From assembly GCF_036347055.1 (NCBI RefSeq), contig NZ_CP108882.1, forward strand, positions 1,178,001-1,242,000: a stretch of 64,000 bases of DNA, written 5' to 3'. The notes beneath the pieces were generated by a model. It was not told the origin of the DNA, ran no database searches, and saw only the letters and a program-made list of their open reading frames with translations. This stretch comes from Streptomyces sp. NBC_00820. GTDB taxonomy: Bacteria > Actinomycetota > Actinomycetes > Streptomycetales > Streptomycetaceae. Shown here piece after piece: positions 1 through 19,953 of this stretch; within the stretch, counting starts at the first letter, position 1; every line of letters begins with the position of its first letter. The translations under genes and the position numbers were made by a program.

Positions 1-3000
1 GGTCCGGCGACACAGCCGAAGTGGTCGCCGTCGATGTCGTGGACGCGCAGGTCGCCGAGGCAGACGTCCTGCCAGTAGGCGGTCATGTCCTGCTGGAGGC
101 CGGGCAGGAAACCGTACTGTCCGGTGTGCCGCAGGAACGTGATGTCGCCGGCGTAGGGCTGGGGCCGGTAGCGGGTCACCGCGAAGAGGCTGTGCCTGAA
201 GACGTCGTAGCGCCGGGCGAGCCGGTCGCGGTCCAGCGGGCCGGTGAACTGCTCGGCGGCACGGGCGAGGATGTCGAGGCGTTCCGCGGGGTGTTGTCCG
301 GCGAGGTCCTGGAAGTGCCGCGCGACCTTGTCGAAGGGGGCGCCGAGCCTGGCCAGGGCGCCGTTGCCCAGGCGGCCCGGGGTGGTTTCGAGCACGGCTG
401 CGATGGCCTCGCCCAGGGTGTACGAGTCGGCCGGGAAGCCGACCGTGGCCGGATCGACTCCCAGGGACAGCGCGAAGGTGTACTCGGCGATCAGGTCGTC
501 ATACACCTCGAAGGGCGGCCGGTAGCAGCTGATCACGGTCAGGTCGGTCACCTCGGCCCCGCCCTCGGCGAGAGCCCTGGCGACCTCGGTGGCGATCAGA
601 CCGCCCATGCAGTAGCCGATCACCCGCAGGCGCCGCCGGCCGTCGGCGAGCAGCGTCCGCGCGTACTCGCCGCCCAGGCGGCTGATGAGCAGGGCCGGTT
701 CCACCTCCAGATACCGGTCGGACGAGCCCGCCTCCAGGCCGATGAGCGCACCCCGCGCCGGTCGGCGCCGGTACTCGTCCAGCAGGGCCTGGTAGGGCAG
801 CAGGGTGCCACTGCCGTCGTGCACCAGTACCGTCGCGGGGCGGTCCTCGGGGCCGTCGGCGAGCAGTGTCGGCGTCATCCGGGCGCCGCCGGTGCCGGGC
901 CGCGGACTCGGCTCGGGCGAAGTCCGGGCTTCGCGAAGGAAGTTCGCGAGAGCGGCGATCGTCGGGCACTGGAGCATCTGCCGCAGCAGGTGCTCCCAGT
1001 CGATGCCGGCCGCCGCGGGTTCCTCCTCGCGCAGGCGCCCGACCAGCCGGGCCACCAGCAGTGAGTCGCCGCCGAGGCGGAAGAAGTCGTCGTCGCGGCC
1101 CACGTGGGGGCGTTCCAGCACCTGGGCCCAGAGCGCGGCCAGTCGGCGTTCGAGCTCGTCGGCGGGCCGCTGAGCGGCGGCGGTGCCCATGTCGGTCCGG
1201 CCGGACGCGGGCAGTCTGCGGCGCAGCCGGGCGCGGTCGGTCTTGCCGTTCGGGGTGAGCGGGAAGTCGTCGAGGATCTCCAGGTGGGACGGCAGCAGGT
1301 AGTCGGGCAGCCGCTGGGCGAGGTGGCGGGTGAGTTCCGCGTGGGTCAGCGCGGCGCGGTCGGTCTTCAGCCGGGTGAAGAACACCTGCTGCCCGGCGAG
1401 CGCCAGTGCGTCGTCCGGTGCGGGGAAGCACAGCTCCGGCTCGGCACCGGCCTGCGCCAGCAGGTCCGTCCACTGGCGGTGCGTCAGGAAGGTCTGGTCC
1501 CCGCTTCGTCGTACGTCGTCGAAGCCGGAGCTGAGTCCGTCGATGAACTCCATCGACACCAGCAGCGGATGACGCTCCAGCGTGGCCTCCATGAAGACCA
1601 GCCAGCCGCCCGGCGCGAGCAGTTCGCGCAGACGACGCAGGGTCTGCGCGGCGTCCTTGGAGTTGTGCAGGACGTTGGCGCACAGGACGACGTCGAAGGA
1701 GTTCGCGCCGAGCCCCTGCTCCGCGGCGTCCACGTTGATGTCGAAGAGCCCGTAGCGCACCCACGGGTACCGCTCGAAGCGTCTGCGCGCCTCTCCCAGG
1801 AAGAACCGGGAGATGTCGGTGAAGAGGTAGTCGACCTCGAACCCGGCCAGTTCGGGGATGAGGTCGATGCTGGTGCCGCCGACACCCGCGCCGACCTCCA
1901 GCACGCGCAGCGGTTCGCCGCCCTCGTGCCGGGCGGCCAGGGCGCGCAGCCCTGCCACGGCGACCCGGTTCAGTGAGCGGCTGACCAGGTTGTCGCGGTA
2001 GGTGGCCTCCGCCACGTCCAGGTTGCCCTGCGGGAAGAGAAGAGCCAGGGGGTCCTCCTCGCCGCGCAGCAGTTCGGGCAGGTGCTCGCTGCTGGTGCGC
2101 ACCAGCCTCAACAGGTCGGCGCCGTAGTCCAGGCGCTCTCCGAGTTCCTCCAGCCGCCGCCAGCCCTCGTGCGGGTCGGTGAATCCGTCGGTGGACAGGC
2201 CGGCGTACCGGTCGGCGGCCGCATCGTGGCGCAGTCGGCCGGCGCCGGTCAGGGCGCGCAGCCAGCGGCGGACGGCGCGCGTGTGCCGGGTGTGCGCGCC
2301 CAGGGCTGCGGCCGCCTCGTGGACGGTGTGTGCGGCGTCCGGACCGGCGAACAGGCCTGCCGCGCGCAGGGTTTGGGCGATCGCCGAGAGGGCGACCTCG
2401 TCCGCCAGGTCCAGGAAGGCGGTGAGCAGGGCGGGGTCGACGGCCGCGCCGATCTCGGCCCCGGCCGCGGCCGCCGCGTCGAGCGCGGCCCTGTCGGCGG
2501 GCAGGAGCGGCCGCGATCCGGGGGCGGTGGTGGCGAATGCCGCCAGGCGGCGGGCGGTGGGGTCGTCACCCGTCACGAGGGCCACCGCGGAGGCCACCGC
2601 CGGGTGCGTCTCGATGGCCGCGGCGAGTTCTCCGGGTTCGACGCGGTGGCCGCGGATCTTCACCTGGTCGTCGACGCGGCCGAGCAGTTCGATGGAGCCG
2701 TCGCGCAGGTACCGGCCGACGTCGCCGGTGCGGTACATCCGCTGCCCGGTGCCGGGGTGGGTCACGAATCGCTCGGCGGTGCGCGCCGGGTCGCCGAGAT
2801 AGCCGAGCGCCAGCCCGGCCCCGGTGATGTACAGCTCGCCGGGCACGAGGTCGGGGCAGTCCCGCAGCGCGGTGTCCAGCACGCGCCAGCCCTGGTTCGT
2901 CAGCGGGGTCCCGTAGGGCACGCTCGGTCCGGTCAGCGCCTTGGGGGCGATGGGGTGGACGATCGACCAGATGGCCGCCTCGGTGGCCCCGCCGAGGCTG

Positions 3001-5537
3001 GTCAGCGCGCAGCCGGGCAGCCGCGCGGCGATCCGGTGGACCAGGGGAACCGGGATCCAGTCGCCGGACAGCAGCGCGACGCGCAGCGAGGACAGCCGTT
3101 GCCCGGTGTCACCGGCCAGGTAGCTGTCGACCATCTGGAGCTGGGCCGGAACGGAGTTCCAGAGGGTGACGCCGTGCCGGTCCACCAGCTCCGCCCAGTG
3201 CGCGGGGTCGGCGTGACGGCCGGCGTCCGGCAGGACGAGGCAGCCGCCGTGGGCGAGCGGTCCGAAGACGTCGTAGACGGAGAGGTCGAAGCCGAGGCCG
3301 GACAGTCCGAGCACCCGGTCGTCCGGGCCCACCGCGAACCGCTCGTTGACGTCCGCCACGGTGTTCCACGCGGCCCGGTGGCTGATCACCACTCCCTTGG
3401 GAGTGCCCGTCGAGCCGGAGGTGTAGATCACGTAGGCAGGGTCGTCCGGGGTGGCCCGGGACAGCGGGGGCGCCTGCGTGTCCGCGCCCGGTACGGCGTC
3501 GACCGTCAGGGTCCGGACACCGGGCAGGTCGACGGTGAGCCACGGCTGGGTGAGCACCGCGCTCACCCCGGCGTCGGTCAGCACGGTGGTGCGTCGGGCG
3601 GCCGGCTGGTCCGTGTCGACCGGCAGGTAGGCCGCGCCGGCCAGCAGAGTGCCGAGGACGGCGGCGATCTGCTCCCAGCCCTTGTCCATCACGATGCCGA
3701 CGAGCCGGCCGGCCGGGTCGCCGTCGGCGGCCAGGCCGGCGGCCACCGAACGTGCCGCCGCCGCGAGTTGACCGTACGTCAGCTGCCTGTCGCCCGCGAT
3801 GACGGCGGGACGGTCCGGGGTGGTCAGGGCCTGGGCGAAGACGGCGTCGTGCAGCAGCCGTTCGGCCCGCGGACGCTCCGTTCGGCTGACCCGCTCGCGG
3901 CGCTCGCGCTGAGCTTCCGGCAGATCCACGACCGACGCCTGGCCCCAGGCCGCGTCGGAGTCGGCCAGCCGGCGCACTGCCGCCTCGAACGCGGCGAAGG
4001 CCTCCTCGGCGACACCCTCCGCGAGGACGTCGCAGCGCACGTCCCAGCCGAGCAGCAGGGCGTCACGGTGCTCCATCACCTGGCAGTCGATCCACACGTG
4101 GGGGGTACGGCTGTGGCCGAGGACGATCTCGCCCTCGCGCAGCCGCGGCGGATCGGTGTCGGCGCCGTCACCGAGTCCGACCGTGCTGGTGAACACGACG
4201 GGCATGAGCGCCGCGTCGCGGCCGCGGCGGCGGCCGAGTTCGCGCAGTACCTCGACGCCGGAGCACATGCCGTGGTCCAGGTCCTGCCACAGCCGGGCCT
4301 GCACCGCCTGCGCGCGAGCGGCGAAGGAACCGCCTGCGGACCCGTCGACGGTCAGCAGTTCCACCGAGGTGAAGTCGCCTACGAGAAGGGGGACTTCCGG
4401 GTGCAGGGGAAGCCGGTTGAACAGGGGCAGATCCAGGGTGAACGCGCTCTGCCCGCTCCATCGTCCGACCACCTCGGCGTACGCGGAGAGCAGTGCGACG
4501 GTCGGGGTGACTCCGTGTCCGGCGGCCCGTTGCCGCAGCTTCTGCCAGAGATCGGGGGGAAGTTGGCTCTGAAGCCGTTCGAATCGTGGGGTGTCCTCAG
4601 CCGGGGCGCCACGGTCCGCCGCCTCGTCGTCGGGCAGTGGGCCGCCGCCCCGTGCCTGGCCGGAGGGGGCGGCAAGCGGCAGTGCCGGGGCGGGTGCGAG
4701 CGGCACCGCTTCGGCGTCGGGGCTGTCCGCGTCGCCCCGGTCCGCCGCGTCCAGCCTGTTCCACCAGTAGGCGCGGTCGCGTTCGAACGTCTCGTCGCGC
4801 AGGCCGCGTTCGGCTGTGAGGTAGTCGCGGTAGCGGATCTCCGGTTCGGGCAGGCCGAGGTCCGGACGCAGGCACAGCTGCTCCAGTTCGCCCAGCAGCA
4901 GCTGGACGCTGGCGTAGTCACAGATCAGCAGGTCGATCGCGAGGTGGACCACCACCTCCCGCTCCCCCGCGGTGACACGCAGTTCGTGGAGCGGCCACTC
5001 CTCGGGGCGGAAGTCACGCGCGGACAGCTCGGTCCGGGCGCGTCCGGCCGCTTCCCGGCACTCGCCGGCGGGGGCGTCGCGCAGGTCCGCGATCTCGACG
5101 CGCTGCTCGGGGACCTCGCGCAGCACCTGCTGGTAGCCGTCGGGATGGATGACGGTCCGAAGGGCGTCGTGGCGTTCCACCAGTGTGCGCCAGGCCTCAC
5201 GCACCCGGCTCGGTTCGAACCGCGGAAACCGCACTTCGAGGTAGGCCTGGCAACCGACGCCGCCGTACTCGTAGGCGCGGCTGCGCCCGAGCAGATAGGA
5301 GGACTGGACGTCAGTGAGCGGGAAGGGTTCGTACCGGCTGCCGGGGTCGGCGGTGAGCCGGGGACCGGCGCCGGAGCGGCGCAGTTCCGCCAGGACGGCC
5401 TGTTTGTGTTCGCGGAGTTGTTCCAGCCGCTCCGGCGTCATCACGTGACGGGGTGCCCGGTAGCGCAGCAGGCCGTTCTCCTCCCACAGCCGTACGCCGA
5501 CGTTGTGAAGGTCATCGATGAGCTGGCTGGTGTTCAA
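1..5537 (-). CDS. NRPS, terminal module: docking-Cy-A(MT)-PCP-TE (3' end outside window)
   Basis: Second NRPS of the cluster, about 1845 codons visible and open to the window edge. Order: a TubC-type N-terminal docking domain (residues 1-55, with LHNVGVRLWEENGLLRYRAP); a heterocyclization domain with the Cy motif DLLICDYAS near 195; an A domain with core YVIYTSGSTG near 700 and pocket residues D-L-Y-N-S-I-W, a cysteine code; a methyltransferase inserted between A8 and A10 with an intact SAM loop VLEVGAGVGG near 1215; a carrier protein FRLGGDSLL near 1490; and a thioesterase. The TE elbow reads GYCMGG near 1640, so Cys replaces the usual Ser, and a likely catalytic His lies in DGDHFG at the edge. 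The start is TTG at 5537, overlapping the upstream TGA. This layout matches PchF of pyochelin synthesis. It should add and cyclise the last cysteine, possibly methylate it, and release the product. Domain order and frame are seen; substrate and product are inferred. Confidence 0.93.
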   Translation of the reverse strand, partial: MNTSQLIDDLHNVGVRLWEENGLLRYRAPRHVMTPERLEQLREHKQAVLAELRRSGAGPRLTADPGSRYEPFPLTDVQSSYLLGRSRAYEYGGVGCQAYLEVRFPRFEPSRVREAWRTLVERHDALRTVIHPDGYQQVLREVPEQRVEIADLRDAPAGECREAAGRARTELSARDFRPEEWPLHELRVTAGEREVVVHLAIDLLICDYASVQLLLGELEQLCLRPDLGLPEPEIRYRDYLTAERGLRDETFERDRAYWWNRLDAADRGDADSPDAEAVPLAPAPALPLAAPSGQARGGGPLPDDEAADRGAPAEDTPRFERLQSQLPPDLWQKLRQRAAGHGVTPTVALLSAYAEVVGRWSGQSAFTLDLPLFNRLPLHPEVPLLVGDFTSVELLTVDGSAGGSFAARAQAVQARLWQDLDHGMCSGVEVLRELGRRRGRDAALMPVVFTSTVGLGDGADTDPPRLREGEIVLGHSRTPHVWIDCQVMEHRDALLLGWDVRCDVLAEGVAEEAFAAFEAAVRRLADSDAAWGQASVVDLPEAQRERRERVSRTERPRAERLLHDAVFAQALTTPDRPAVIAGDRQLTYGQLAAAARSVAAGLAADGDPAGRLVGIVMDKGWEQIAAVLGTLLAGAAYLPVDTDQPAARRTTVLTDAGVSAVLTQPWLTVDLPGVRTLTVDAVPGADTQAPPLSRATPDDPAYVIYTSGSTGTPKGVVISHRAAWNTVADVNERFAVGPDDRVLGLSGLGFDLSVYDVFGPLAHGGCLVLPDAGRHADPAHWAELVDRHGVTLWNSVPAQLQMVDSYLAGDTGQRLSSLRVALLSGDWIPVPLVHRIAARLPGCALTSLGGATEAAIWSIVHPIAPKALTGPSVPYGTPLTNQGWRVLDTALRDCPDLVPGELYITGAGLALGYLGDPARTAERFVTHPGTGQRMYRTGDVGRYLRDGSIELLGRVDDQVKIRGHRVEPGELAAAIETHPAVASAVALVTGDDPTARRLAAFATTAPGSRPLLPADRAALDAAAAAGAEIGAAVDPALLTAFLDLADEVALSAIAQTLRAAGLFAGPDAAHTVHEAAAALGAHTRHTRAVRRWLRALTGAGRLRHDAAADRYAGLSTDGFTDPHEGWRRLEELGERLDYGADLLRLVRTSSEHLPELLRGEEDPLALLFPQGNLDVAEATYRDNLVSRSLNRVAVAGLRALAARHEGGEPLRVLEVGAGVGGTSIDLIPELAGFEVDYLFTDISRFFLGEARRRFERYPWVRYGLFDINVDAAEQGLGANSFDVVLCANVLHNSKDAAQTLRRLRELLAPGGWLVFMEATLERHPLLVSMEFIDGLSSGFDDVRRSGDQTFLTHRQWTDLLAQAGAEPELCFPAPDDALALAGQQVFFTRLKTDRAALTHAELTRHLAQRLPDYLLPSHLEILDDFPLTPNGKTDRARLRRRLPASGRTDMGTAAAQRPADELERRLAALWAQVLERPHVGRDDDFFRLGGDSLLVARLVGRLREEEPAAAGIDWEHLLRQMLQCPTIAALANFLREARTSPEPSPRPGTGGARMTPTLLADGPEDRPATVLVHDGSGTLLPYQALLDEYRRRPARGALIGLEAGSSDRYLEVEPALLISRLGGEYARTLLADGRRRLRVIGYCMGGLIATEVARALAEGGAEVTDLTVISCYRPPFEVYDDLIAEYTFALSLGVDPATVGFPADSYTLGEAIAAVLETTPGRLGNGALARLGAPFDKVARHFQDLAGQHPAERLDILARAAEQFTGPLDRDRLARRYDVFRHSLFAVTRYRPQPYAGDITFLRHTGQYGFLPGLQQDMTAYWQDVCLGDLRVHDIDGDHFGCVAG

Positions 5538-8500
5538 AGCGTCCCGTCCTCTGTGTCTTCGTCCTCGATGGCGAGGTGTTGGGGCTCGATGAGCTTCGCG
5601 AGGCCCGCGATGGTCGGCTCGCCCAGCAGTTGGCGCAGGGAGATGTCGCCGCCGAACTCATGGCGCAGTCGCTGTACCAGCCTGGTGGCCCGCAGGCTGT
5701 CACCGCCGAGCGCGAAGAAGGTGGCGTCGCGTGGTACCTCGGGCAGTCCGAGGACGCTGCTCCACAGCGCGGCGAGTGCGGTCTCGACGGGGCCGCGTGG
5801 CGCGTCGCCCGGCGGCAGGGTGGCCGGTCCGTCGGGGACCAGGGGGACGAGCGCGGCGCGGTCGACCTTCCCGTTGGCGGTGAGGGGCAGTTCGTCGAGC
5901 GGGGTGTACCCGGCCGGGCGGGCGTGGGCGGGGAGCCGGTCGGCCACGAAGAGGTCGAAGTCCGGCGTGAGGGCGGACGGCCGGATGGTCACGAAGGCGT
6001 GCAGGCGGCGGTCGTCACGTTCACCGACCGGCATCACGACGGCGTGGTGGACGGCGGGGTGGGTCTCCAGGACGGACTCGATCTCCCCGAGCTCGACCCG
6101 ATGACCACTGACCTTCAACTGATGGTCCCTGCGCCCCAGGAACTCCAGCGTCCCGTCCGCCCAGTACCGGCCCACATCACCCGTGCGATACCACCGGCCA
6201 CCATCCGCGCCGACAACGAACTTACGAGCCGTCAGCTCCGGCTCACCCCGATACCCCAACGCCAGACTCGCCCCACCGATCCACAACTCCCCCGCCACCA
6301 GATCAGGACAGTCCCGACCCTCACCATCCACCACCCGAAACCGCTGATTCCCGAGCGGCAACCCATACGGAACCGACACCCAATGCGCCGGAACCTCGGC
6401 CACCTCCCACCAGTTCGACCAGATCCCCGCCTCCGTCGCCCCACCCAAAGCCACCAGACGACACCCCGAACCCACCCGCACCAACCGCGACTTCAGATCC
6501 AGCCCCACCCAGTCACCCGACACCAACGCCAACCGCAACGAAGACGCCAACACACCAGCCGAACCCACCGCCGCCACCAACATCTCCAGCAACATCGGCA
6601 CGCTGTTCCACACCGTCACCCCGTGCTCGGCCACCAACCGCACCCAGCACTCCGCATCACGCCGCTCCCCCTCCCCCACCAACACCAACGCCCCACCCAC
6701 ACCCAACAACCCGAACACATCGAAAACCGACAGATCGAAATCAAGCGCCGACACCGCCAACACCCGATCCCCCACACCCACCCCGAACCGACGACACACA
6801 TCCACCACCGTGTTCATCGCCGCCCCATGCGACACCTCCACACCCTTCGGCACCCCCGTCGAACCCGACGTGAAAATCACATACGCCACCGCATCCACAC
6901 CCACTCCCACCAACCCCACCAAAGGCTCGAACGCGTCTGCCGCGTGCACCGTGGTGATGGTGTGCCGGACGCCGGCGGCGGCCAGCATCCGCTCGCGGCG
7001 CACCGCCGGCTGGTCGACGCCGACCGGGACGTACGCGGCACCGGCCGCGAGCACTCCGAGTACGGCGGCGATCTGCGCGGGCCCCTTCGGCAGCGTCACC
7101 GCCACCAGGTCGCCGGGCCGGACGCCCTCGGCCCGGAGCATCGCGGCGACGCGCAGGGCGCGGTCGGCCAGTTCCCCGTACGTCATGCGGCCGTCCTTGT
7201 CCCAGAGCAGCGCGGGACGGTCCGGCTCGGCGGCGGCACGGGTGAAGAAGGCGGCGTGCAGGAGCTGGTCGGGGAGCGGGCCGGTGGTGGCGTTGACGGC
7301 GTCCCGTACGGCCGATTGCCGGGACGGCAGCAGGGCGGGCGTCCGCTCGGACCAGTCGGCCCGGACGATCCAGTCGAGCAGTTCGCCGTGCGCCGCGAAC
7401 ATCGCGTCGAGCACTCCGGCGGGGAACAGTTCGTCCACGGCGTCCCAGGTGAGCTGAAGACCGCCGTCGCGCATCATCACCTGTTCGTCCAGCCAGACCT
7501 GCGGGGTCTGCGACACGCTCCAGACCGGCTTGCGCAGACCGTCGCTGAGGGTGTCGTTCACGCCGAGCGCGCTGGTGAACACCACGGGCAGCGCGCCCTC
7601 GGCTCCCCCGGCGGCCCCGGCGGACTCACGGAGCAGCCCGAGTACGGGAGCGCCTCGGTGGTCGAGGTCCTGCCACATCCGTTCCTGGAGACGGCGGACC
7701 CGGCTCTCGAAGGACTCCCCCGCCAGGGGCTGGTGCGCCACGGGGAGCAGCGAGGTGAAGTCGCCCAGCACCCGGTCGATGTGCGGGTGCGCGGCCCGGC
7801 GGTCGAACAGGGTCAGTCCCACGGTCAGTTCGAGATCGGCGCTCCACGTGCTCAGCACTTCCGCGTAGGCAGCCAGGAGGACCGCCGACGGCGTGAGCCC
7901 GCACTGCTTGGCACGGTCCTGGAGAGTGCTCCAACGCGCGGGGTCGAGCCATGTCTCACGGCGTGCGAAGCGGGGGCGGGCGATCGACGCGGGGTCGGCG
8001 GCGAGCGGCAGGGCCGGGGCCGGGGGCAGCTCCGGGACCCGTCGGCGCCAGTGGTCCAGCGCCGCCTCCGACTCCGTCCGGCTGGGCTTCGCCTGGCACA
8101 CGTAGTCGCGGAACGAGAAGTCCACGGGCGGGAGTTCGGCTGCCGGGTCGCGGTACAGCGTGTCCAGCTCGGCGAAGAGGATCATCATGCTCAGTCCGTC
8201 GACGAGCAGGTAGTCCAGTCCGATTCCGACGCGGGCGCGTCCCCCGCCGAGACGGACCGCGCGTACGTCGAAGAGCGGCCAGGTGCCAGGGTCGAGAACC
8301 TGGTGGGACATCTCTTCGCGCAGCCGCTCCAAAGCCTCCTCGGCCGCGCCGTCGGGGGCGTCGGTCACGGGGACGCGGAGGCGGGGCACTTCCGGCAGGA
8401 TGCGCTGGTCACCGTCTTCGTCGAAGACGGCACGCAGCATCTCGTGCCGGGCGATCAGCCGGTTCCAGGCGGCTTCGAGACGCTCCAGGTCGAAGCCGGA

Positions 8501-11500: not shown

Positions 11501-14500
11501 ACGGTCGGCGGCCGCGTGCTCGACGGGGATCGTCGCCCTCGGCACCTCGGCCAGGATGCGCTGGCCGCCGTCCTCGTCGAAGACGGCGCGCAGCATCTCG
11601 TGGCGGGCGACGAGCTGGTTCCAGGCCCGCTCCAGGCGCTCCAGGTCGAGGCCGGTGCCGTCGAACTCCGTGTAGTAGTGAGCTCCCACCCCGCCGAGGG
11701 GCAATCCGGTGGCCCGGCCGGTCCAGTAGGCGCGCTGCACGTCGGTCGGCGGGAACGGGTCGTGGCGGTGGCCGGGGTCCGCACTGACGGTGAGGGGCGG
11801 GCGGCTGGGGGTTTCCTCAGCTTGTCGGGGCGACGACGCGTCGGGGCCCGAGCCGGCGTCCGGCTTCGCGCCCTGGGCCGGGCCCACGTTCCCGTACACC
11901 GCCTGTCCGCCGACGACGTGCGGTGCGAGGTGGGGTGCGAGGTCCTTCAGCACGGGCGTGGCGAACACGGCGGACAGATCGAGGGGCAGGCCGGCCTTCC
12001 GCAGGTGGCCGACCAGCCGGGTGGCCAGCAGCGAGTCGCCGCCGAGGCCGAAGAAGTTGTCGTCACGGCCCACTCGGGCCACTCCCAGCACCGCGCACCA
12101 GGCGGAGGCGAGCACGGATTCGGACGGACCGCGCGGCGGTTCTCCGGCCGCCCCGGTGTCCTCGGGGTCCGGCAGCAGACGCGCCAGGGCCGTGCGGTCC
12201 AGTTTGCCGTTGGCGGTGACGGGCAGCGCGGGTACGCCGTAGACGCGGTCGGGGAGCATCGCGGCCGGCAGCCTGTCCGCCAGCCAGTCGCGCATCTCCG
12301 GGCCGGAGGGCAGGCCCGCGTCGGCGGTGCGATGTGCGCGCAGCAGTACCTCGGCTCCGGGAGGGCAGTCGTCGGTGGCCGGACACGTCAGACCGTGGGC
12401 GGTCAGCAGACGCGACCACTCCTCCACCGGCAGGAGCGTTGTCCGGCGATCGCGGCGGACGGCGTCGAGTGTGGTGAAGCCGCGGGTGGGCAGGGCGGCG
12501 GCGATCAGGGCGAACGGTGGGAGTTCCGTCCGCTCCAGGGCGAGCAGCCGCCCCCCGGGAGCCAGCAGGAGCGCGGCGAGGCCGATGCCGGTGGTGGGGT
12601 CGGGGAAGGCGTGCAGGGCGTTGTCGGCCACGACCACGTCGAAGGCGGCCAGCAGGTCGTCGGGCAGCAGCCCGCCGCTCGTGCGGCACATCCGGATCCG
12701 GTCCTCGGGCAGCCGGCCGGCGACGTCCCGGGCGGCGGCGAGGCGTGCGGTGGACTCGTCGATCAGGGTGAGGCGGTGCCGCTGTCCGGGCGCGGTCAGG
12801 CGCGTGAGGGTGCGCGCGCCCACGGCGCCGAGCACGGCGATGTCCGAAGGTGCGGGGGCGTCCTGGATCTCCCGGACCAGTGCGTCGAGCGCGGTCGTGT
12901 TCCGGTCCGGTACGGCGTCCGCGAGTGCCGTGGGCGCGAGGACGGAGTCGTCGAGCAGGACGAGCGGGTCGAGCGCGCCCCGTACGATGGCGGCGATGTC
13001 GTCCATGCGCCCGTTCAACCGAGCGCTGATGCGTGCGAGTTCGCGGCCGGCATCATCCTGACCGGTGCCCCGCCCGAAGCCCGGACCGCTGCCCCCTGCG
13101 AAGCTCCGGCCGGTGTCCCCTACGGCCTCACCTCGATCGGCGCCCGCCGCGTCGCGGCACACCTCCGTCAATCGCGGACCGGCGGCGTAGCCGTGCCGGT
13201 CGCCGGTGAGGACTTCACGCGAGGTCAGCCAGTCGAACCAGAGCCGGAGCAGGGGGTGCCACTCGGCCGGAGCACCCCAGCGCCGTGCCAGCTCGGGCAG
13301 TGAGGTGGCCGTGCCGGTGATGCCCGCCTCACGCACGGCGAGGCGGGCGAGCAGGGACTCCACGGCCCGGGCCTCGGGGTCGGTTTCGCCGCGTACGGCC
13401 CAGTGGCCCGTCCCTGGCCCGCGATCCGTGCCGCCACCTGCCGCCCGGCCCGGCGATCCGCCGGGTGCGGGGAGGTTCGGGGCCGTCGCGTGCCTCGGGG
13501 TCGCGACCGCGACCAGGCGTTTGGCCCGGTCGGCGCCCACGGTGGTCACCACGCAGCCGCCGACGGCCGGGTGGGAGCCGAGCGCGGCCTCGATCTCGCC
13601 CGGTTCGGTACGTACGCCTCGGATCTTGACCTGCTGGTCGATCCGGCCGAGGAACTCCAGGGTGCCGTCCGGACGGTACCGTCCGCGGTCACCCGTCCGG
13701 TACCAGCGTCCTCCCTGACGGACGGGGAACCTCTCCGCCGTGAGTCCGGGGTCTCCCAGGTAACCGAGGGCGACACCGGCACCGCCGATCCACAGCTCGC
13801 CGGGGACCCAGTCCGGACGGTCTGCGCCGTCCGGGCCCACCACGCGGAACTCCTGGTTGGCGAGCGGGAAACCGTAGGGAATCGACGCCCAGCCGGCCGG
13901 AACCTCGGTCACCTCGTACAGGTTCGACCAGATGGCGGCTTCGGTGGCGCCCCCGAGGGCGAGGAAGCGGCAGGACCCGCCGCTCTGACCGGCGAGCCGG
14001 CCGGGCAGGTCGAGGCCGATCCAGTCACCCGACAGGAGCGCCACGCGCAGCCCTTCCAACGGGGTGCCCCGGCCGGTCGCCTCGGTGAGCAGCATGTCGA
14101 GCAGAAGCGGCACCGAGTTCCACACGGTCACCCGGTGACGGACGATCAGGTCGGCCCACGCCCGCGGGTCGCGTCGTTCGGCCTCGGCCACCAGAACCAG
14201 CGCGCCGCCGGTCGACAGCAGGCCGAAGACGTCGTACACCGACAGGTCGAAGTCCATGGCGGAGACGGCCAGCACACGGTCGGAGCCCGCGAGCGACAGG
14301 CGCGTGTTGATGTCGTCGACGGTGTTGGCCGCGGCGGCGTGCGCGACGGCGACGCCCTTGGGCTCTCCCGTCGTGCCCGAGGTGTAGATCACGTAGGCGG
14401 GGGTGCCGGGGTCGACGGACACCGGCGCGGCGAGCGGTCGCCGTGCGCAGGTGGTGGCGACGTCGAGTACGGCGACGTCCGCCGGGAGCCGTCCGGGCGC

Positions 14501-16699
14501 GTCGCCCGGCCGGCTCGCCGCGTCGCTCAGCATGAGCCGGGAGCCGGCACGGCGCAGGATGCGCCGCATGCGCTCGGCGGGCTGGTCGGCGCCGATCGGG
14601 ACGTACGCCCCTCCGGCCGCGAGGACGCCGAGCACCGCAGCGATCTGGTCCGGGCCCCGCCGCACGGAGACGGCGACCGGCTCGCCCGGCCGCAGGCCGC
14701 CCTCGACGAGGGCTCCGGCCACGCCGAGTGCGCGCCGCGCCAACTCGCCGTAGGTCATGGCCGACTGGCCCAAACCGCTGCCCCACAGCAGGGCGGGACG
14801 GTCCGGTTGCCGTCGTGCGCGGGCGAAGAAGGAGTCGTGCAGTGTCCTCGGGGTGAGCGGCCGCTGCGTGGAGTTGACCTTCTCCCGCACCACCCGCTGC
14901 GGTGCGGGCAGTGGCACCGACGCCGACGTGGTCCAGTCGGAGTCCTCCGCCGACAGACCGTCGACGAGCGTCCGGTAGGCGTCGAACATGTCGTCCATCA
15001 GACGCGGCGGGAACAGGTCGTCGACCGAGTCCCAGCACAGGTCGACCCCCTCGTCCGACTCGTACACCTGGTGGTCCAGCCAGACCTGGGGCGTCTGCGA
15101 GATCATCCAGTGGAGTTCTCCGAGCACCGTCCGCACAGGTGGCGGGACCAGTTCGGTGCCCAGGTTGCACGCGAACACCACGGGGGCGCGGCGGGGGCGG
15201 TCCGGGTCCGTTCGGGCCAGATCGCGCAGCACCTCCACGCCGGAGCAGGCTCGGTGGGCGACGTTGGCCCGGAACTCGGCCTGGAGGGCGTGAACGCGCT
15301 CGGCGAAGGACGCGCCGGCGGACAGGTCGACGGGAAGCAGCAGCAGATCGGTGAAGTCGGCCACCATGCCGTCGACGTCCGCGTGGGCCGGGTCACGGTC
15401 GAACATCGGCAGGCTGAGCAGGAACCGGCTGCTCTCGCTCCACGCTCCGAGCACCTGCGCGTACGCGGCGGCGAGGGCCATCGCCGGTGTCGTGCCGCCC
15501 TGCCGCGCGCGACGGCGGAACCGCTCCCAGGCCTGCGGTGCCACCCGGTACCTGCGCCGGGTGAAGCGCGGCGCGCCCAGGGTGCTCGGATCGGTGGCGA
15601 GCGGGAGGGCGGGCCCGTCGGGAAGGTCCGTCAGACGTTCACGCCAGTACCGGCGGGCCCGTTCGCGCGCGTCGGTCCGGTCGAGGTCGTGTTCGCGGTC
15701 GGCGAGATAACGCGGGAACCCGGATTCGCTCCCGGGCGGCGAGGTCCGCGAGGCCGTCTCGGCACCGGGGGCGCGTGCCTCGATACCGGGGGCGCCTACC
15801 TCGGTGCCGGGGTCGTCGAGGCACGCGCGGGCGAGGTCGGCCAGCAGGATCCTGATGCTCTCGACGTCCGCGACGAGGAGGTCGATCCCGAGATGGATCC
15901 GGGACGTCCCTCCGGGCAGGAGGGAGAGCTGGACGTCGAACACCTCGCCGTGTTCGACGCGCAGCCGGCGGTGCGACAGCGCTTCGCGTACGGCCGCCAG
16001 CCGGGGCCGCGGATCCTGTTCCGCGCAAAGGTCGTGGACGGTCAGGCCGCGCCACGGGCTCGTCGGCATGATCTGCTGCGTACCGTCGTCGAGGAACCGG
16101 GCGCGCAGCATGCCGTGGCGCGCGATGACAGCGTGCACCGCGTGTTCCAGTCGCCGCGGGGCCAGCCGGGCGCCGTCGAACTCGAAGTACGCGTGGCAGC
16201 CGACCCCGCCGAGCACCTGGTCGTCGCGGCGGCCGATCCAGTAGGCGTGCTGCATGGCCGTCAGCGGGAAGGGAGCGCCGGAGTCCGGGCTCCGGGCTCC
16301 ACTCGGCTCTGCCCGCTCCTGCGGGGGTGCCTCGGCCGACGGATGCGGGAGAGCCGGTGCGACGGCCGGCTGCCGTTCCCGGCGGGTGTGCGGCACGTGC
16401 GGTGGCCGGGTGGCGAGCAGAGCCGTCCAGGCCGCCAGGGTCGGACGCTCGGCCAGATCGAGGAAGTCGACGAACACGCCGTGCCGGCGCAGTCGGCCGG
16501 CCAGGCTCATGAACCGGATGGAGTCCATGCCGCACTCGGTCAGATCGTCGTCGTGCGGTACGTCCCGAGGCTCGCAGCCGAGCAGGCCGGCCACCTCGTT
16601 CCTGATGACGTCCTCGGTGAGTGCTCTGTACACGGACGACGACGGCTCGCATCCGGTCGCCGAAACCCCATGACCCGGTGAATTCATTCCACAACCCAT
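5534..16699 (-). CDS. NRPS, three cysteine modules with aryl carrier: ArCP-Cy-A(pseudoMT)-PCP-Cy-A-PCP-Cy-A-PCP
   Basis: 3721 residues. Aryl carrier protein with phosphopantetheine Ser60 (ECGMDSIRF). Cy1 has DLLVADVES near 271. A1 has core YVIYTSGTTG near 768 and pocket D-L-Y-N-S-I-W (cysteine), split by an inserted methyltransferase-like domain at about 1060-1480 whose SAM loop is degenerate (VLGAVGARTL near 1290), as in PchE/HMWP2-type epimerase domains. PCP1 is near 1555. Cy2 has ENIVLDGRS near 1780, with Glu for the first Asp. A2 core is near 2248 and PCP2 near 2638. Cy3 has DYLLVDGLS near 2830. A3 core is near 3277 and PCP3 near 3666. A2 and A3 share an almost identical core with pocket D-L-F-N-S-I-W, close to the cysteine code. 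The acidic tail EDEDTEDGTL suits docking to the TubC domain of the next protein. It should load salicylate and join three cyclised cysteines. Met5 (16687) is a possible alternative start; no strong Shine-Dalgarno precedes either. Confidence 0.95.
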   Translation of the reverse strand: MGCGMNSPGHGVSATGCEPSSSVYRALTEDVIRNEVAGLLGCEPRDVPHDDDLTECGMDSIRFMSLAGRLRRHGVFVDFLDLAERPTLAAWTALLATRPPHVPHTRRERQPAVAPALPHPSAEAPPQERAEPSGARSPDSGAPFPLTAMQHAYWIGRRDDQVLGGVGCHAYFEFDGARLAPRRLEHAVHAVIARHGMLRARFLDDGTQQIMPTSPWRGLTVHDLCAEQDPRPRLAAVREALSHRRLRVEHGEVFDVQLSLLPGGTSRIHLGIDLLVADVESIRILLADLARACLDDPGTEVGAPGIEARAPGAETASRTSPPGSESGFPRYLADREHDLDRTDARERARRYWRERLTDLPDGPALPLATDPSTLGAPRFTRRRYRVAPQAWERFRRRARQGGTTPAMALAAAYAQVLGAWSESSRFLLSLPMFDRDPAHADVDGMVADFTDLLLLPVDLSAGASFAERVHALQAEFRANVAHRACSGVEVLRDLARTDPDRPRRAPVVFACNLGTELVPPPVRTVLGELHWMISQTPQVWLDHQVYESDEGVDLCWDSVDDLFPPRLMDDMFDAYRTLVDGLSAEDSDWTTSASVPLPAPQRVVREKVNSTQRPLTPRTLHDSFFARARRQPDRPALLWGSGLGQSAMTYGELARRALGVAGALVEGGLRPGEPVAVSVRRGPDQIAAVLGVLAAGGAYVPIGADQPAERMRRILRRAGSRLMLSDAASRPGDAPGRLPADVAVLDVATTCARRPLAAPVSVDPGTPAYVIYTSGTTGEPKGVAVAHAAAANTVDDINTRLSLAGSDRVLAVSAMDFDLSVYDVFGLLSTGGALVLVAEAERRDPRAWADLIVRHRVTVWNSVPLLLDMLLTEATGRGTPLEGLRVALLSGDWIGLDLPGRLAGQSGGSCRFLALGGATEAAIWSNLYEVTEVPAGWASIPYGFPLANQEFRVVGPDGADRPDWVPGELWIGGAGVALGYLGDPGLTAERFPVRQGGRWYRTGDRGRYRPDGTLEFLGRIDQQVKIRGVRTEPGEIEAALGSHPAVGGCVVTTVGADRAKRLVAVATPRHATAPNLPAPGGSPGRAAGGGTDRGPGTGHWAVRGETDPEARAVESLLARLAVREAGITGTATSLPELARRWGAPAEWHPLLRLWFDWLTSREVLTGDRHGYAAGPRLTEVCRDAAGADRGEAVGDTGRSFAGGSGPGFGRGTGQDDAGRELARISARLNGRMDDIAAIVRGALDPLVLLDDSVLAPTALADAVPDRNTTALDALVREIQDAPAPSDIAVLGAVGARTLTRLTAPGQRHRLTLIDESTARLAAARDVAGRLPEDRIRMCRTSGGLLPDDLLAAFDVVVADNALHAFPDPTTGIGLAALLLAPGGRLLALERTELPPFALIAAALPTRGFTTLDAVRRDRRTTLLPVEEWSRLLTAHGLTCPATDDCPPGAEVLLRAHRTADAGLPSGPEMRDWLADRLPAAMLPDRVYGVPALPVTANGKLDRTALARLLPDPEDTGAAGEPPRGPSESVLASAWCAVLGVARVGRDDNFFGLGGDSLLATRLVGHLRKAGLPLDLSAVFATPVLKDLAPHLAPHVVGGQAVYGNVGPAQGAKPDAGSGPDASSPRQAEETPSRPPLTVSADPGHRHDPFPPTDVQRAYWTGRATGLPLGGVGAHYYTEFDGTGLDLERLERAWNQLVARHEMLRAVFDEDGGQRILAEVPRATIPVEHAAADRAAQALADLRAGMSHQVRDPARWPLNDLRAVVYEQDGEQRVRLGVSLENIVLDGRSMMIVLSELEQLYHAPDAVLPPVAGLSFRDYLIQVTPSEEETKAARRYWTERLADLPPAPALPLAAHPSAVGTPRFVRRSGLLPADRWRALTERAARHGLTPSVVLLTAYAEVLARWSGRPELTVNLTLFDRQDVHPAVDDIVGDFTSLLPLAYRPEAGTGFLARAQALQRRLGQDLDHRAWSAVRVSRELARAQGTAEAALPVVFTSALGTRRDLSLDLSDWLLPKVWGISQTPQTWLDNQVYDSPRGLHYDWDAVEQLLPDTVLDPMFDAYGHLLDRLGETDWSAPLSDLLPAGQRRVRERVNATDGPLPSLTLHEPFFERAAKEPHLTACVGDFGRLSYGELALRARRVAGKLRASGVREGDSVALHLPKGPDQLACVLGVLAAGAAYVPVGLDQPPLRRTELYRSAGVGCVLAATGAAAHAEAAPEGVTVLSVEDCSDSEPLVGLVGVGVDAVAYVIFTSGSTGVPKGVEVSHGAAMNTVVDVCRRFGVGVGDRVLAVSALDFDLSVFDVFGLLGVGGALVLVGEGERRDAECWVRLVAEHGVTVWNSVPMLLEMLVAAVGSAGVLASSLRLALVSGDWVGLDLKSRLVRVGSGCRLVALGGATEAGIWSNWWEVAEVPAHWVSVPYGLPLGNQRFRVVDGEGRDCPDLVAGELWIGGASLALGYRGEPELTARKFVVGADGGRWYRTGDVGRYWADGTLEFLGRRDHQLKVSGHRVELGEIESVLETHPSVHHAVVTVDDTGARRRLVAHVVSGHTLPEAELTAFLRDRLPGHAVPAAIGLLDELPLTANGKVDRAALAAAAPAAPVTDGGEAPRTPVERLVSDVWSEVLDVPRPPRDGNFFLLGGDSLLATKVVALLRAAGVNGAAISGLFTTPVLADFAAPLTLGPAPDAERLPTIAPDPANRHQPFAPTELQRAYWVGRSPGFTLGGVGSYYYCEFDESGFDLERLEAAWNRLIARHEMLRAVFDEDGDQRILPEVPRLRVPVTDAPDGAAEEALERLREEMSHQVLDPGTWPLFDVRAVRLGGGRARVGIGLDYLLVDGLSMMILFAELDTLYRDPAAELPPVDFSFRDYVCQAKPSRTESEAALDHWRRRVPELPPAPALPLAADPASIARPRFARRETWLDPARWSTLQDRAKQCGLTPSAVLLAAYAEVLSTWSADLELTVGLTLFDRRAAHPHIDRVLGDFTSLLPVAHQPLAGESFESRVRRLQERMWQDLDHRGAPVLGLLRESAGAAGGAEGALPVVFTSALGVNDTLSDGLRKPVWSVSQTPQVWLDEQVMMRDGGLQLTWDAVDELFPAGVLDAMFAAHGELLDWIVRADWSERTPALLPSRQSAVRDAVNATTGPLPDQLLHAAFFTRAAAEPDRPALLWDKDGRMTYGELADRALRVAAMLRAEGVRPGDLVAVTLPKGPAQIAAVLGVLAAGAAYVPVGVDQPAVRRERMLAAAGVRHTITTVHAADAFEPLVGLVGVGVDAVAYVIFTSGSTGVPKGVEVSHGAAMNTVVDVCRRFGVGVGDRVLAVSALDFDLSVFDVFGLLGVGGALVLVGEGERRDAECWVRLVAEHGVTVWNSVPMLLEMLVAAVGSAGVLASSLRLALVSGDWVGLDLKSRLVRVGSGCRLVALGGATEAGIWSNWWEVAEVPAHWVSVPYGLPLGNQRFRVVDGEGRDCPDLVAGELWIGGASLALGYRGEPELTARKFVVGADGGRWYRTGDVGRYWADGTLEFLGRRDHQLKVSGHRVELGEIESVLETHPAVHHAVVMPVGERDDRRLHAFVTIRPSALTPDFDLFVADRLPAHARPAGYTPLDELPLTANGKVDRAALVPLVPDGPATLPPGDAPRGPVETALAALWSSVLGLPEVPRDATFFALGGDSLRATRLVQRLRHEFGGDISLRQLLGEPTIAGLAKLIEPQHLAIEDEDTEDGTL
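6034..6929. repeat. Copy 1 of 896-bp near-identical repeat (A3 adenylation core)
   Basis: Matches 9115-10010 at a constant offset of 3081 with, by eye, four differences (6055/9136, 6118/9199, 6194/9275, 6905/9986). It covers the A-domain core from just before motif A3 to just after A8, including every specificity residue. On the coding strand its codons end mostly in G or T (GTG, TTG, GAT, GGT, TCG), unlike the C-ending flanks. Both ends are sharp. Confidence 0.97.
9115..10010. repeat. Copy 2 of 896-bp near-identical repeat (A2 adenylation core)
   Basis: Partner of 6034-6929. Sequence before and after diverges at once into ordinary module-specific code, which indicates recombination or gene conversion at subdomain boundaries rather than duplication of a whole module. 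Confidence 0.97.
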
Positions 16700-16914
16700 C
16701 GCCGACTGATTGTGCCTCGGAATTGATACACCAAAGTTCTCGCCAACGGCAAAGCGTTGCAGATGGCGGACGGCGTCTCACCCGCTGCTATGGTTGCGCA
16801 CGTCGCAGAGCCCTGGGCATACCCGGTCACGGGACGAGCTCAAGCACACTCGCTCCACACATCGACCGGCACTCGACCTAGAAAGTCCATCCATAAAATG
16901 TTCGGATTATCGGG
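16700..16914. promoter_or_regulatory. Divergent intergenic region between NRPS operon and salicyl-AMP ligase
   Basis: About 215 bp separate the two divergent arms. For the leftward arm a weak candidate promoter reads TTGCCG (complement of 16747-16752), 18 bp, then TATCAA (complement of 16723-16728), about 24 bp before ATG 16699. For the rightward arm TAAAAT at 16894-16899 lies only 15 bp before ATG 16915, which would give a very short leader. I looked for a DmdR/IdeR iron box and a Zur box and saw neither. Confidence 0.35.
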
Positions 16915-18564
16915 ATGAAATTCAGCGCCGACACGTTGGACTCCGTGCTGCACGAACGGGCCCGGCTGCACCCGGACCGGCCGGCCCTCGTCTCACCCGC
17001 CGGAGACGTCGTTACATACGACGAACTGCGCATTCTTGCCGAGCAGTTGACGTCACAGCTGCGCCGCATCGGCGTCACCGCCGGGGATCGGATCGTGGTC
17101 CAGCTCCCCAACCTTATGGAATTCACACTTCTGATCTTCGCGCTGGTGCGGATGCGGGCCATTCCGGTTCTGGCCCTCCCGGCACACCGGAAGAACGAAG
17201 TCAGCCACTTGTGCCGCATGACGGATGCCGTCGGTTACGTCATCCCGGACCGGCACATGGGTTTTGAATTCTCGGAACTCGCCGATTCCGTACGGGCAGA
17301 GAATCCGAATCTGCGTCACGTACTGATTGCCACCGGGGGGAACAGGCCGTGGCACAGCCTCGACGAAACATTTCTTCTACGGGACGGCACCCCTCTTTCC
17401 GAAGCCGCCGGGAATTGGCCGGACAATGCCTCCGAAGCACCCGGATCCTCGCGTCCCGACGGGGCGGAAACGGCCCTGCTCCTGCTGTCCGGCGGAACGA
17501 CCGGACTGCCCAAACTGATCGCCAGGACCCATCGGGACTACGCGTACAACATCCGGCACAGCGCGGCGGTGTGCGGGCTCGACCAGGACAGCGTGTACCT
17601 GACGGCCCTGCCGGCCGCTCATAATTTCGCCCTCGGCTGCCCCGGTGTGCTGGGCACCCTGGCGGCCGGCGGCAAGGTCGTCCTGGCCGAGGACGCCACA
17701 CCCGCCAGGACCTTCCCCCTGATCGAGCGCGAACGGGTGACGGTCACCGCGCTCACCCCTCCTCTGCTGAAGCTCTGGCTGGACGAGGCGGCCTGGACCG
17801 AGCACGACCTGTCGAGCCTCGCCCTGCTGCAGGTGGGAGGCGCCCGGCTGAGCCGGGCGGACGCCGAACGGGTCGGGCCCGAACTGGGCTGCCGGCTCCA
17901 GCAGGTGTTCGGCATGGCCGAGGGACTGCTCTGCTTCACCCGGGCCGACGACCCGGAGGACATCGTGCTCTCCACCCAGGGCCGTCCGCTCTCCGGGGAC
18001 GACGAGCTGCGTGTGGTGGACGGCGACGAGCGCGAGGTCGCCCCCGGCGAGGTGGGGCACCTGCTGGTGCGCGGCCCCTACACGGTGCGCGGCTACTACC
18101 GGGCGCCCGAGTACGACGCCATCGCCTTCACCTCCGACGGTTTCTACCGGACCGGCGACCTCGTCCGGATCACCCCGACCGGCCACGTGATCGTCGAGGG
18201 CCGGATCAAGGACGTCATCAACCGCGGCGGCGAGAAGGTTCCGGCCACGGAGGTGGAGAGCCATCTGGCCGAGCACACCCGGGTGGCCGAGGTCGCGGTC
18301 GTCGGGATGCCGGATCCGCTGCTCGGTGAACGCACGTGTACGTATGTGGTACCGCGGGCCGAACCACCCACGCTGAGGGAGCTGAACGGCTTCCTGCGCG
18401 AGCGGGGACTGGCCGCGCACAAGCTGCCCGACCGGCTGGAGATCGTGGCCACGCTGCCGCGTACCGGCGCGGGCAAGGTGGACAAGCGTGAGCTCGCCGA
18501 AGACGTCGCCGCGCGGCTGTGCGCGGAACGCGACGCGCGCCGGCGTACGGCAGCGAGCCTGTAG
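16915..18564 (+). CDS. Salicyl-AMP ligase (aryl acid-activating enzyme, YbtE/PchD/DhbE family)
   Basis: 549 residues, stand-alone aryl-acid adenylation enzyme. It should activate salicylate with ATP and load it on the ArCP of the NRPS at 5534-16699. Visible: ATP loop LLLSGGTTGLPK near 182-193, the aryl-acid-ligase-like ALPAAHNFALGCPG, the A5 region QQVFGMAEGL, hinge GRIKDVINRGGEKV, and catalytic Lys in TGAGKVDKREL. The N-terminus is shorter than EntE; an in-frame stop at 16894-16896 rules out an upstream ATG or GTG. It is followed 18 bp later by the salicylate synthase, so the two form one operon. Salicylate rather than dihydroxybenzoate is inferred from that neighbour. Confidence 0.93.
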   Translation: MKFSADTLDSVLHERARLHPDRPALVSPAGDVVTYDELRILAEQLTSQLRRIGVTAGDRIVVQLPNLMEFTLLIFALVRMRAIPVLALPAHRKNEVSHLCRMTDAVGYVIPDRHMGFEFSELADSVRAENPNLRHVLIATGGNRPWHSLDETFLLRDGTPLSEAAGNWPDNASEAPGSSRPDGAETALLLLSGGTTGLPKLIARTHRDYAYNIRHSAAVCGLDQDSVYLTALPAAHNFALGCPGVLGTLAAGGKVVLAEDATPARTFPLIERERVTVTALTPPLLKLWLDEAAWTEHDLSSLALLQVGGARLSRADAERVGPELGCRLQQVFGMAEGLLCFTRADDPEDIVLSTQGRPLSGDDELRVVDGDEREVAPGEVGHLLVRGPYTVRGYYRAPEYDAIAFTSDGFYRTGDLVRITPTGHVIVEGRIKDVINRGGEKVPATEVESHLAEHTRVAEVAVVGMPDPLLGERTCTYVVPRAEPPTLRELNGFLRERGLAAHKLPDRLEIVATLPRTGAGKVDKRELAEDVAARLCAERDARRRTAASL

Positions 18565-18582
18565 AGCAGTGAGGGAGAAGCC

Positions 18583-19953
18583 ATGACGTCGCGTCCGTGT
18601 TACCGGGAGACCGAAGCCGACGCACCGCACGACCCGCTGCTCACCGTGGCGAACCTCGCCGCGGCCCATCGCGGCGAGACCCACTTCGTGTACGAGCGCG
18701 GTGAGACCTGGACCTTCTGCGCCGGAGCGCTGGCGGAGCTCACCGTCGACGCTCACCATGTCCACTACGTCTGCGGGAGCGAACGGCGCAGTGTCGCCTG
18801 GCGCGACCAGCCGCTGCGGACCGTGGCCGAACTGCTAGGCACCCTGCCGACGCGTTCCTGGCGCGCCTACGGCTGGGCCGCCTTCGAGCTGGCCGCGCGG
18901 TTCGCACACCCGGCAGGCGAGGTCCTTCCGGCGGCGCGCACCCCCCACGACACGCGAGGCCCGCTGCTGAAGCTGGTCGTGCCGCGCGACGAGATCCGGA
19001 TCACCGCCGGACGTGCGCTGCTGAACTGCGTGGACGAGGCCAGGTCGGCCGAGCTGACCGCCCTGCTCGGTGCCCTGCCGATGCGCTCCGAACCAGCCCG
19101 TGGAACGGTCGAGTCGGACCTCGCCGTCACGGGTGGCCAGTACCGCGAGCGGGTGAGCGAGGCCGTGGCCGAGATCGCCGCGGGGCTGCTGGACAAGGTC
19201 GTCCTGAGCCGGGTCGTACCGGTGCCCCACGAGATCGACCTGATCGACTCCTTCGTGCTGGGCCGCCGCCACAACACGCCCGCACGCTCGTTCCTGCTCC
19301 ATATGGGCGGGTTGCGCGCGGCCGGCTTCAGCCCGGAGGTGGTGCTCTCGGTCTGCGCCGACGGACGGGTACGGACCCAGCCGCTGGCCGGGACCAGGGC
19401 GCTGACGCCGTCCGCCGTCGAGAACCGGCGACTGCGCGCCGAACTGCTCGGTGACGCCAAGGAGATCCACGAACACGAGATCTCGGTGACCGCCGCGCTG
19501 GAGGAGATGCGCACGGTCTGCGAGGCGGCCGGGGTCGGTGTCGACGAGTACATGGCCGTCAAGGAACGCGGCAGCGTGCAGCACCTGGCCTCCCAGGTCT
19601 CCGGCCGGCTCGCACCCGGTCGCGACCGCTGGGACGCCTTCGCCGCCCTGTTCCCGGCGATCACCGCGTCCGGGGTGCCCAAGTCCGCCGCCATGGAGGC
19701 GATCCGACGGCACGAGCAGGAGGCGCGCGGGATGTACGGGGGTGCGGTGCTGACCCTCGGCAGCGACGGTTCGCTCGATGCCGGCCTGGTGCTCCGCGCG
19801 GTCTTCGCGCAGGCCGGACGCGTATGGCTGCGGGCCGGGGCGGGGGTCGTACGGGACTCGGTGCCGGCACGTGAGTTGGAGGAGACCTGCGAGAAGCTGC
19901 GCAGCGTCGCGGCCTATCTGGTCCCGGCGCGAGCCCTCGCGGAGGTGCCGTGA
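18583..19953 (+). CDS. Salicylate synthase (MbtI/Irp9/YbtS family)
   Basis: 456 residues, chorismate-utilising enzyme converting chorismate via isochorismate to salicylate plus pyruvate. Visible: DKVVLSRVV with the general-base Lys, LAGTRAL, the Mg-binding GDAKEIHEHEISV, and the C-terminal GMYGGAVLTL and WLRAGAGVV blocks of chorismate-binding enzymes. A single-polypeptide MbtI-type enzyme makes salicylate directly and needs no separate isochorismate-pyruvate lyase; none is visible. ATG 18583 has GAGGGAGAAG upstream. It supplies the starter unit for the NRPS. Confidence 0.93.
   Translation: MTSRPCYRETEADAPHDPLLTVANLAAAHRGETHFVYERGETWTFCAGALAELTVDAHHVHYVCGSERRSVAWRDQPLRTVAELLGTLPTRSWRAYGWAAFELAARFAHPAGEVLPAARTPHDTRGPLLKLVVPRDEIRITAGRALLNCVDEARSAELTALLGALPMRSEPARGTVESDLAVTGGQYRERVSEAVAEIAAGLLDKVVLSRVVPVPHEIDLIDSFVLGRRHNTPARSFLLHMGGLRAAGFSPEVVLSVCADGRVRTQPLAGTRALTPSAVENRRLRAELLGDAKEIHEHEISVTAALEEMRTVCEAAGVGVDEYMAVKERGSVQHLASQVSGRLAPGRDRWDAFAALFPAITASGVPKSAAMEAIRRHEQEARGMYGGAVLTLGSDGSLDAGLVLRAVFAQAGRVWLRAGAGVVRDSVPARELEETCEKLRSVAAYLVPARALAEVP

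Follow-up and report, generated by a model that had tools for sequence, protein, structure and literature searches.

Streptomyces sp. NBC_00820 carries a nonribosomal peptide synthetase (NRPS) cluster primed with salicylate, which raises the question of what its four cysteine-type modules would make and whether the product would bind metal. The window, that is, the whole stretch of 64,000 nt analyzed here, corresponds to bases 1,178,001–1,242,000 of a single contig of 8.1 Mb; the left flank was also read. Positions 1–19953 of the window contain two NRPS genes and the genes for an aryl-AMP ligase and a salicylate synthase. A preliminary description of this region had predicted a metallophore made of salicylate and four cyclized, possibly methylated cysteines. 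That interpretation is partly supported by our analysis, which added to it a small protein bound to the cluster and GRINS-like cores in two adenylation (A) domains. The cluster appears to be of the coelibactin/pyochelin type, and its two NRPS subunits are likely to make a salicyl-(cysteine-derived ring)4 compound. Such a molecule can be searched for by mass, and would be longer than the salicyl-thiazoline metallophores that we could name, which contain two or three cysteines.

Two NRPS subunits with four cysteine-type modules

Domains and families were called from the listing of open reading frames and from Pfam and NCBIfam scans. Together with the A codes, these confirmed the parts already recognized: a salicylate synthase, a ligase, an aryl carrier protein (ArCP), four cyclization (Cy) domains, four Cys-type A domains and one thioesterase (TE). 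The module order, A codes, motifs and conserved gene set were read directly from the sequence. Both NRPS genes are on the minus strand: NRPS-A (5534–16699; 3721 aa) has the plan ArCP-Cy1-A1[epimerase-like insert]-PCP-Cy2-A2-PCP-Cy3-A3-PCP, and NRPS-B (1–5537, with 46 bases more to the left of the window; 1860 aa) the plan TubC_N-Cy4-A4[methyltransferase, MT]-PCP-TE. A Pfam scan of both subunits found no polyketide synthase (PKS) domains.

In NRPS-A, the ArCP (ca. 16406–16627, GMDSI; limits preceded by ca. are approximate) is followed by Cy1 (ca. 14975–16276, DLLVAD), A1 (ca. 13400–14830), the insert of module 1 (ca. 12230–13207), PCP1 (ca. 11930–12127), Cy2 (ca. 10460–11767), A2 (8930–10402), PCP2 (ca. 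8690–8902), Cy3 (ca. 7370–8632, DYLLVD), A3 (ca. 5840–7327) and PCP3 (5588–5779). NRPS-B begins with a TubC_N docking domain (5382–5525) and continues with Cy4 (ca. 3948–5342, DLLICD), A4 (ca. 2388–3836), the MT insert (ca. 1413–1970), the PCP of module 4 (936–1145) and the terminal TE (ca. 3–860), whose nucleophile motif, GYCMGG, has Cys for Ser. A divergent promoter region (16700–16914) separates NRPS-A from the plus-strand genes of the aryl-AMP ligase (16915–18564) and the salicylate synthase (18583–19953). The synthase scored 448.1 bits with TIGR03494 (cut-off 325.15). The top family of the ligase was the 2,3-dihydroxybenzoyl-AMP ligase model, with a score below its cut-off, and we read its substrate as probably salicylate because the salicylate synthase is its neighbor.

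The A codes were derived by alignment, with the final K assumed. All four A domains gave the cysteine-type code DL[YF]NLSLIWK, with Y in A1 and A4 and F in A2 and A3. Since the first module for sorangibactin, called as cysteine by antiSMASH, is described as using serine (PMC10127202), control codes from coelibactin-like loci were needed. These loci (G118, G661 and G622) were named by gene content, and no authentic coelibactin record is among them. Their first A domain was readable in two of the three, as DLWQLGLVHK and DLFNLGLIHK, and A1 of proteins P0033 and P0042 gave DLYNLGLIHK and DLFNLGLIHK, respectively. Such ..G..H codes would presumably accept serine or threonine. A1–A4 of our line all have S and W at the positions of that G and H, and serine is an unlikely substrate for module 1 because its code is unlike the ..G..H A1 codes of the coelibactin-like loci. 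Judging from the codes, four cysteines are the best reading.

GDFT-type and SQTPQ.WLD-type motifs are present in the four Cy domains, with variants in Cy4. A tree of 42 Cy domains, for which the anchor missed some, including one Cy per coelibactin-like A subunit, grouped the 10 first Cy domains, Cy1 among them, in one clade (support 100/100) and the 11 PchF-type Cy domains in a separate clade; Cy2 and Cy3 were not sisters. The modification inserts previously noticed in modules 1 and 4 are both present, although they differ in kind: that of module 4 has an intact S-adenosylmethionine (SAM) motif (VLEVGAGVGG), whereas that of module 1 is a degenerate MT without SAM motif. The latter aligns to the epimerase insert of PchE and retains the His equivalent to H1204, with the partner of E1234 shifted by one in the ungapped alignment (residues as given in PMC8807600), and it is a putative epimerase. 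As to release, 99 PchF-like proteins no longer than 2100 aa were listed, ours among them: in 96 the TE nucleophile is Cys, and the other three gave no motif match. A Cys nucleophile is widespread among these proteins and, therefore, does not by itself predict a thiolactone as in sorangibactin.

GRINS-like repeats in A2 and A3

A2 and A3 are 94.5 % identical over 1085 aligned bases. They contain the skewed blocks 9151–10110 (A2) and 6091–7020 (A3, a repeat of that in A2), with GC skews of 0.44 and 0.45 and an AT skew of -0.42 on the coding strand. In each of six genomes with this line, A2 and A3 share a core of 0.67–0.70 kb with 82.8–100 % identity (99.9 % across 0.70 kb in our genome). Between genomes, identity in the same core is 50.9–78.4 % for A2 and 54.6–85.4 % for A3; only between G361 and G383 does the identity of the A3 cores (85.4 %) reach the level seen within genomes. 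The neighboring Cy2 and Cy3 are 74.8–88.9 % identical between genomes and 66.4–70.7 % within them. Additionally, species differ in the residue at position 239 (F, Y or W), yet A2 and A3 share it in 9 out of 9 lines. Both copies are G/T-rich with skews >25 % in G000 (our genome), G381 and G616; the skew is C/A-rich in G383, where one value is 22 %, and weak or mixed in G361 and G237. No skewed A-domain blocks were found in the three coelibactin-like A subunits.

GRINS of PKSs are described as repeats of around 1 kb, often with >90 % identity within a synthase and with GC and TA skews >25 % (PMC10394414), and gene conversion and skews are mentioned together for PKSs and NRPSs in PMC11915812. By their sequence, the A2/A3 blocks fit GRINS as defined for PKSs in size (ca. 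1 kb), high internal identity and skew >25 %, but differ in lying in NRPS adenylation domains of a line with no PKS. The repeats indicate that GRINS-like homogenization acts on NRPS adenylation domains, holding two modules on one substrate code. The same skew scan revealed further strand-skewed blocks at positions 53341–54450, 42721–43230 and 26101–26520 of the window.

Tailoring genes, predicted product and possible metal binding

The conserved cluster extends ca. 9 kb to the left of the window, to genome position 1,169,236. This flank contains, on the minus strand, genes for a saccharopine-dehydrogenase-like oxidoreductase (genome positions 1176663–1177958), which we take to be PchK-like, an Irp3-type thiazolinyl imine reductase (TIR; 1175515–1176666; TIGR01761 356.7 bits, cut-off 188.8), a type II TE (TEII; 1174719–1175468), a SAM methyltransferase (1173927–1174634), a flavin halogenase (1171338–1173023) and a B12 (cobalamin) radical-SAM enzyme (1169236–1171341). 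The halogenase aligns to CndH, RadH and CmlS. It contains the motif set of CmlS/CndH-type halogenases (GxGxxG, WxWxIP, FxxPxxSxG and a catalytic Lys), in the form of WYWVIP, FLDPLLSSG and a Lys at CndH residue 76 (hand-counted), besides GxGxxG. The radical-SAM protein is nearest to KedN5, TokK and CysS.

The nearest kind of system is coelibactin/sorangibactin, with a pyochelin-like first module, and the shared gene set and order bear out coelibactin, the closest compound named in the preliminary description. From the published accounts, common features are the salicylate start, the free aryl-AMP ligase, the Cys TE, the saccharopine-dehydrogenase-like and Irp3-like enzymes and the MTs, and SrbE of sorangibactin has the same saccharopine-dehydrogenase domain type (PMC10127202). 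The whole set of salicylate synthase, ligase, PchF-like subunit, saccharopine-dehydrogenase-like enzyme, TIR, MT and TEII is in one locus here. The order NRPS-B, saccharopine-dehydrogenase-like, TIR, TEII and MT is common to the three coelibactin-like loci, which add an MT between TIR and TEII. Our cluster differs in having four cysteine-type modules, instead of three with a Ser/Thr-like first one, and an epimerase-like insert, a halogenase, a radical-SAM enzyme and a small secreted protein. The ArCP-Cy-A(E)-PCP first module aligns to PchE, and the last module has the Cy-A(MT)-PCP-TE order of PchF, but pyochelin lacks the two cysteine modules in between (two versus four) and has fewer tailoring enzymes. 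Yersiniabactin, whose name is carried by some database relatives, is made by HMWP2/HMWP1 from three cysteines, using a single A domain and also a PKS module; it shares the salicyl start, the Cy chain and the TIR, whereas our line has four A domains and lacks PKS domains. Watasemycin contains two cysteines, versus four here, and is C-methylated by a radical-SAM enzyme. By description, our cluster resembles those of watasemycin/thiazostatin in PchK, antiporter and radical-SAM enzyme; PMC11626248 reports both PchK genes and a Na+/H+ antiporter in them.

From these data, we infer the following chemistry, including ring states, number and sites of modifications, release form and metal binding. Chorismate would be converted to salicylate, which would be activated and loaded onto the ArCP, and Cy1 to Cy4 would each condense and cyclize one cysteine; the first thiazoline would probably be epimerized by the insert of module 1. 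The Irp3-type reductase, perhaps with the saccharopine-dehydrogenase-like enzyme, could reduce one or two rings to thiazolidines, which the MT of module 4 and the free MT would methylate. The cobalamin radical-SAM enzyme would probably carry out a C-methylation and the flavin halogenase would probably halogenate the phenol, before the Cys-type TE releases the chain; the product is, then, probably halogenated and methylated. The computed undecorated acid is C19H18N4O3S4, with [M+H]+ 479.0335, or 511.0961 if two rings are reduced and two methyls added. The earlier proposal of salicylate plus four heterocyclized, possibly methylated cysteines is supported by the A codes, the Cy motifs, the coelibactin-like gene set and recurrence in six other genomes, one with a truncated locus.

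Several observations weigh against this product. An A code is no proof of the substrate, given the sorangibactin precedent (PMC10127202). The halogenase and the radical-SAM enzyme score below the cut-offs of what are still their best NCBIfam families (243.7 versus 900 bits for CmlS; 304.1 versus 700 bits for NF033712, the KedN5 family). Cy2 has ENIVLD, departing from DxxxxD, and might condense without cyclizing. We consider it unlikely, nevertheless, that module skipping or an inactive Cy2 leads to a shorter or partly uncyclized chain: the first DxxxxD position of Cy2 is E in eight and P in one of the nine proteins of this family (ours, P0002, P0004–P0009 and the partial P0048), but other multi-cysteine lines likewise show variation there (E, N), and Cy2 keeps GDFT and SQTPQTWLD, as the other Cy domains keep their versions of both motifs, the Asp of the second being the catalytic one in PchE according to PMC8807600. 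The near identity of the A2 and A3 cores could also mean that one module is spurious, created by an error of assembly. This is very improbable and already largely refuted, because independent assemblies show the same plan and Cy2 and Cy3, only 66 % alike in DNA, fall in separate clades and recur across species.

By analogy with known systems, a metallophore role for the salicyl-(cysteine-derived ring)4 compound is plausible. A salicylate synthase next to an NRPS serves as a chelator marker, and chelator-based calls are reported to match manual annotation with 97 % precision (PMC12971057); in our cluster the synthase adjoins the NRPS, and phenol-thiazoline scaffolds are metal binders. This part of the preliminary description has the marker in its favor and finds no counterpart in regulation. 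Scans with consensus sequences, allowing up to 3 mismatches for Zur-like sites, detected such a site upstream of NRPS-A in none of six promoters of four-cysteine loci (that of G308 not included) versus all three coelibactin-like loci, which counts against a link to metal. No Zur-like sites appeared in the window or in the cluster cores of four-cysteine loci, and DmdR/IdeR-like sites gave 0 matches in any sequence scanned, in a scan run without a positive control. The divergent promoter carries a partly conserved AACTAATACACCA-like stretch.

It is quite possible, then, that the product does not serve metal uptake and is an antibiotic, cytoprotective or signaling compound handled extracellularly by a secreted protein, in keeping with the promoter data and with the retention of the halogenase and the radical-SAM enzyme in all six other loci, but at odds with the scaffold and the chelator marker. 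Transport genes bear little on this alternative. FecCD was not found above cut-off near the cluster in six genomes (G237 has one sub-threshold match, 8 kb outside the core), and Peripla_BP_2 was absent within 30 kb in six four-cysteine genomes; the absence of importers says little because the three coelibactin-like controls also lack a nearby Peripla_BP_2.

Zur-like matches in four-cysteine loci occurred only outside the core, four in G237 and one in G308. At ca. 15500–16130 and 19000 of L054 (G237:C47, ca. 35.5–36.1 kb and 39.0 kb), Zur-like matches and the FecCD match lie just outside the cluster; this might be an adjacent zinc-uptake locus.

Relatives, a small, apparently secreted protein and cluster borders

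Proteins P0002 and P0004–P0009 have the size and plan of NRPS-A, with 63–87 % identity (a simple scan missed PCP1 in P0002). The gene set is conserved in G361, G383, G381, G237 and G616 and, from the contig start onward, in G308, and both subunits are also present in strains NPDC058067 and NPDC020983 and in K. kazusensis. The same cluster occurs in named Kitasatospora, Actinacidiphila and Streptomyces strains, although it is rare: at least 70 % identity to the radical-SAM enzyme was found in 6 of 394 genomes of the family and at least 79 % identity to the MT in 2 of 392 genomes of the genus, ours included in both counts, and among 199 genomes only ours had a salicylate synthase with >54 % identity. 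A search of genome contigs with the radical-SAM enzyme gave one locus at 55 %. No NRPS match >600 bits was found around its relatives of ca. 42–51 % identity in nine stretches (L055–L063), nor around L015. Among plasmids, 19 records contained pieces, none covering 80 %.

This line is probably not the only one with a four-cysteine plan: judging from their sequences, others probably exist in Nonomuraea (P0011/P0174 and P0012/P0196) and Herbihabitans (P0022/P0211). P0003, from Pseudonocardia endophytica, has one module more than NRPS-A. P0003, P0011, P0012 and P0022 are long salicyl-type lines with cysteine codes, and in one of them a single subunit contains four A domains with such codes. We found no description of a salicyl tetra-cysteine product in the open-access literature. 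An uncharacterized cluster with a halogenase is reported as scoring 45 % coelibactin (PMC13238742), and an activity is described for thiazohalostatin (PMC10951976). Tetroazolemycins, considered for their name, are described as oxazoline-thiazolidine dimers of a different plan (PMC3707159).

The small signal-peptide protein is encoded on the plus strand to the left of the window (G000:C1:1173223–1173681, or L005:15223–15681). It had strong matches in six cluster genomes and none elsewhere among 394 searched, and constitutes an undescribed family, so far found only with such clusters. A first model had a pLDDT of 53.2 and a Foldseek list that was noise. A second reached 86.6, but three of its five models were below 58; its alignment combined 11 locus sequences, trimmed to the mature protein, with 10 untrimmed database proteins. 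It predicts an 8-stranded barrel of ca. 120 residues, for which quinohemoprotein amine dehydrogenase and designed barrels score equally high. The protein is apparently secreted, with a lipocalin/avidin-like barrel if the model holds; it would resemble calycins (lipocalin, avidin/streptavidin) in predicted fold, size and signal peptide, but differs from them in lacking a convincing sequence match, its fold being a model prediction. A PDB sequence search with the family gave one match (E 0.36), not convincing. Weak Pfam matches were scattered among 21 members (Invasin_D3 in three, Diphtheria_C in two, and DUF5627, TrwC and C6 in one each; best E 0.00078), and were dismissed as chance because they involve few members and not the modeled sequence.

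We tentatively propose that the cluster may encode its own extracellular barrel (one or two copies), with the poly-thiazoline product as its ligand and a role as carrier, solubilizer or self-protection. Streptavidin, made beside an antimetabolite pathway, offers a parallel, and the barrel would be a bacterial counterpart of siderocalin or streptavidin. The locus offers a clean test of the role of a cluster-bound secreted barrel protein.

To the right of the salicylate synthase the first gene is a lactate permease, and none of five tested right-flank proteins recur at the loci of relatives. Further left, beyond the radical-SAM gene, there are a CPA2 antiporter, an HTH/cupin protein and a pyridoxal-phosphate (PLP) lyase. 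The antiporter (L005:8892–10208, minus strand) is within the examined stretches in three of seven loci, in differing places.

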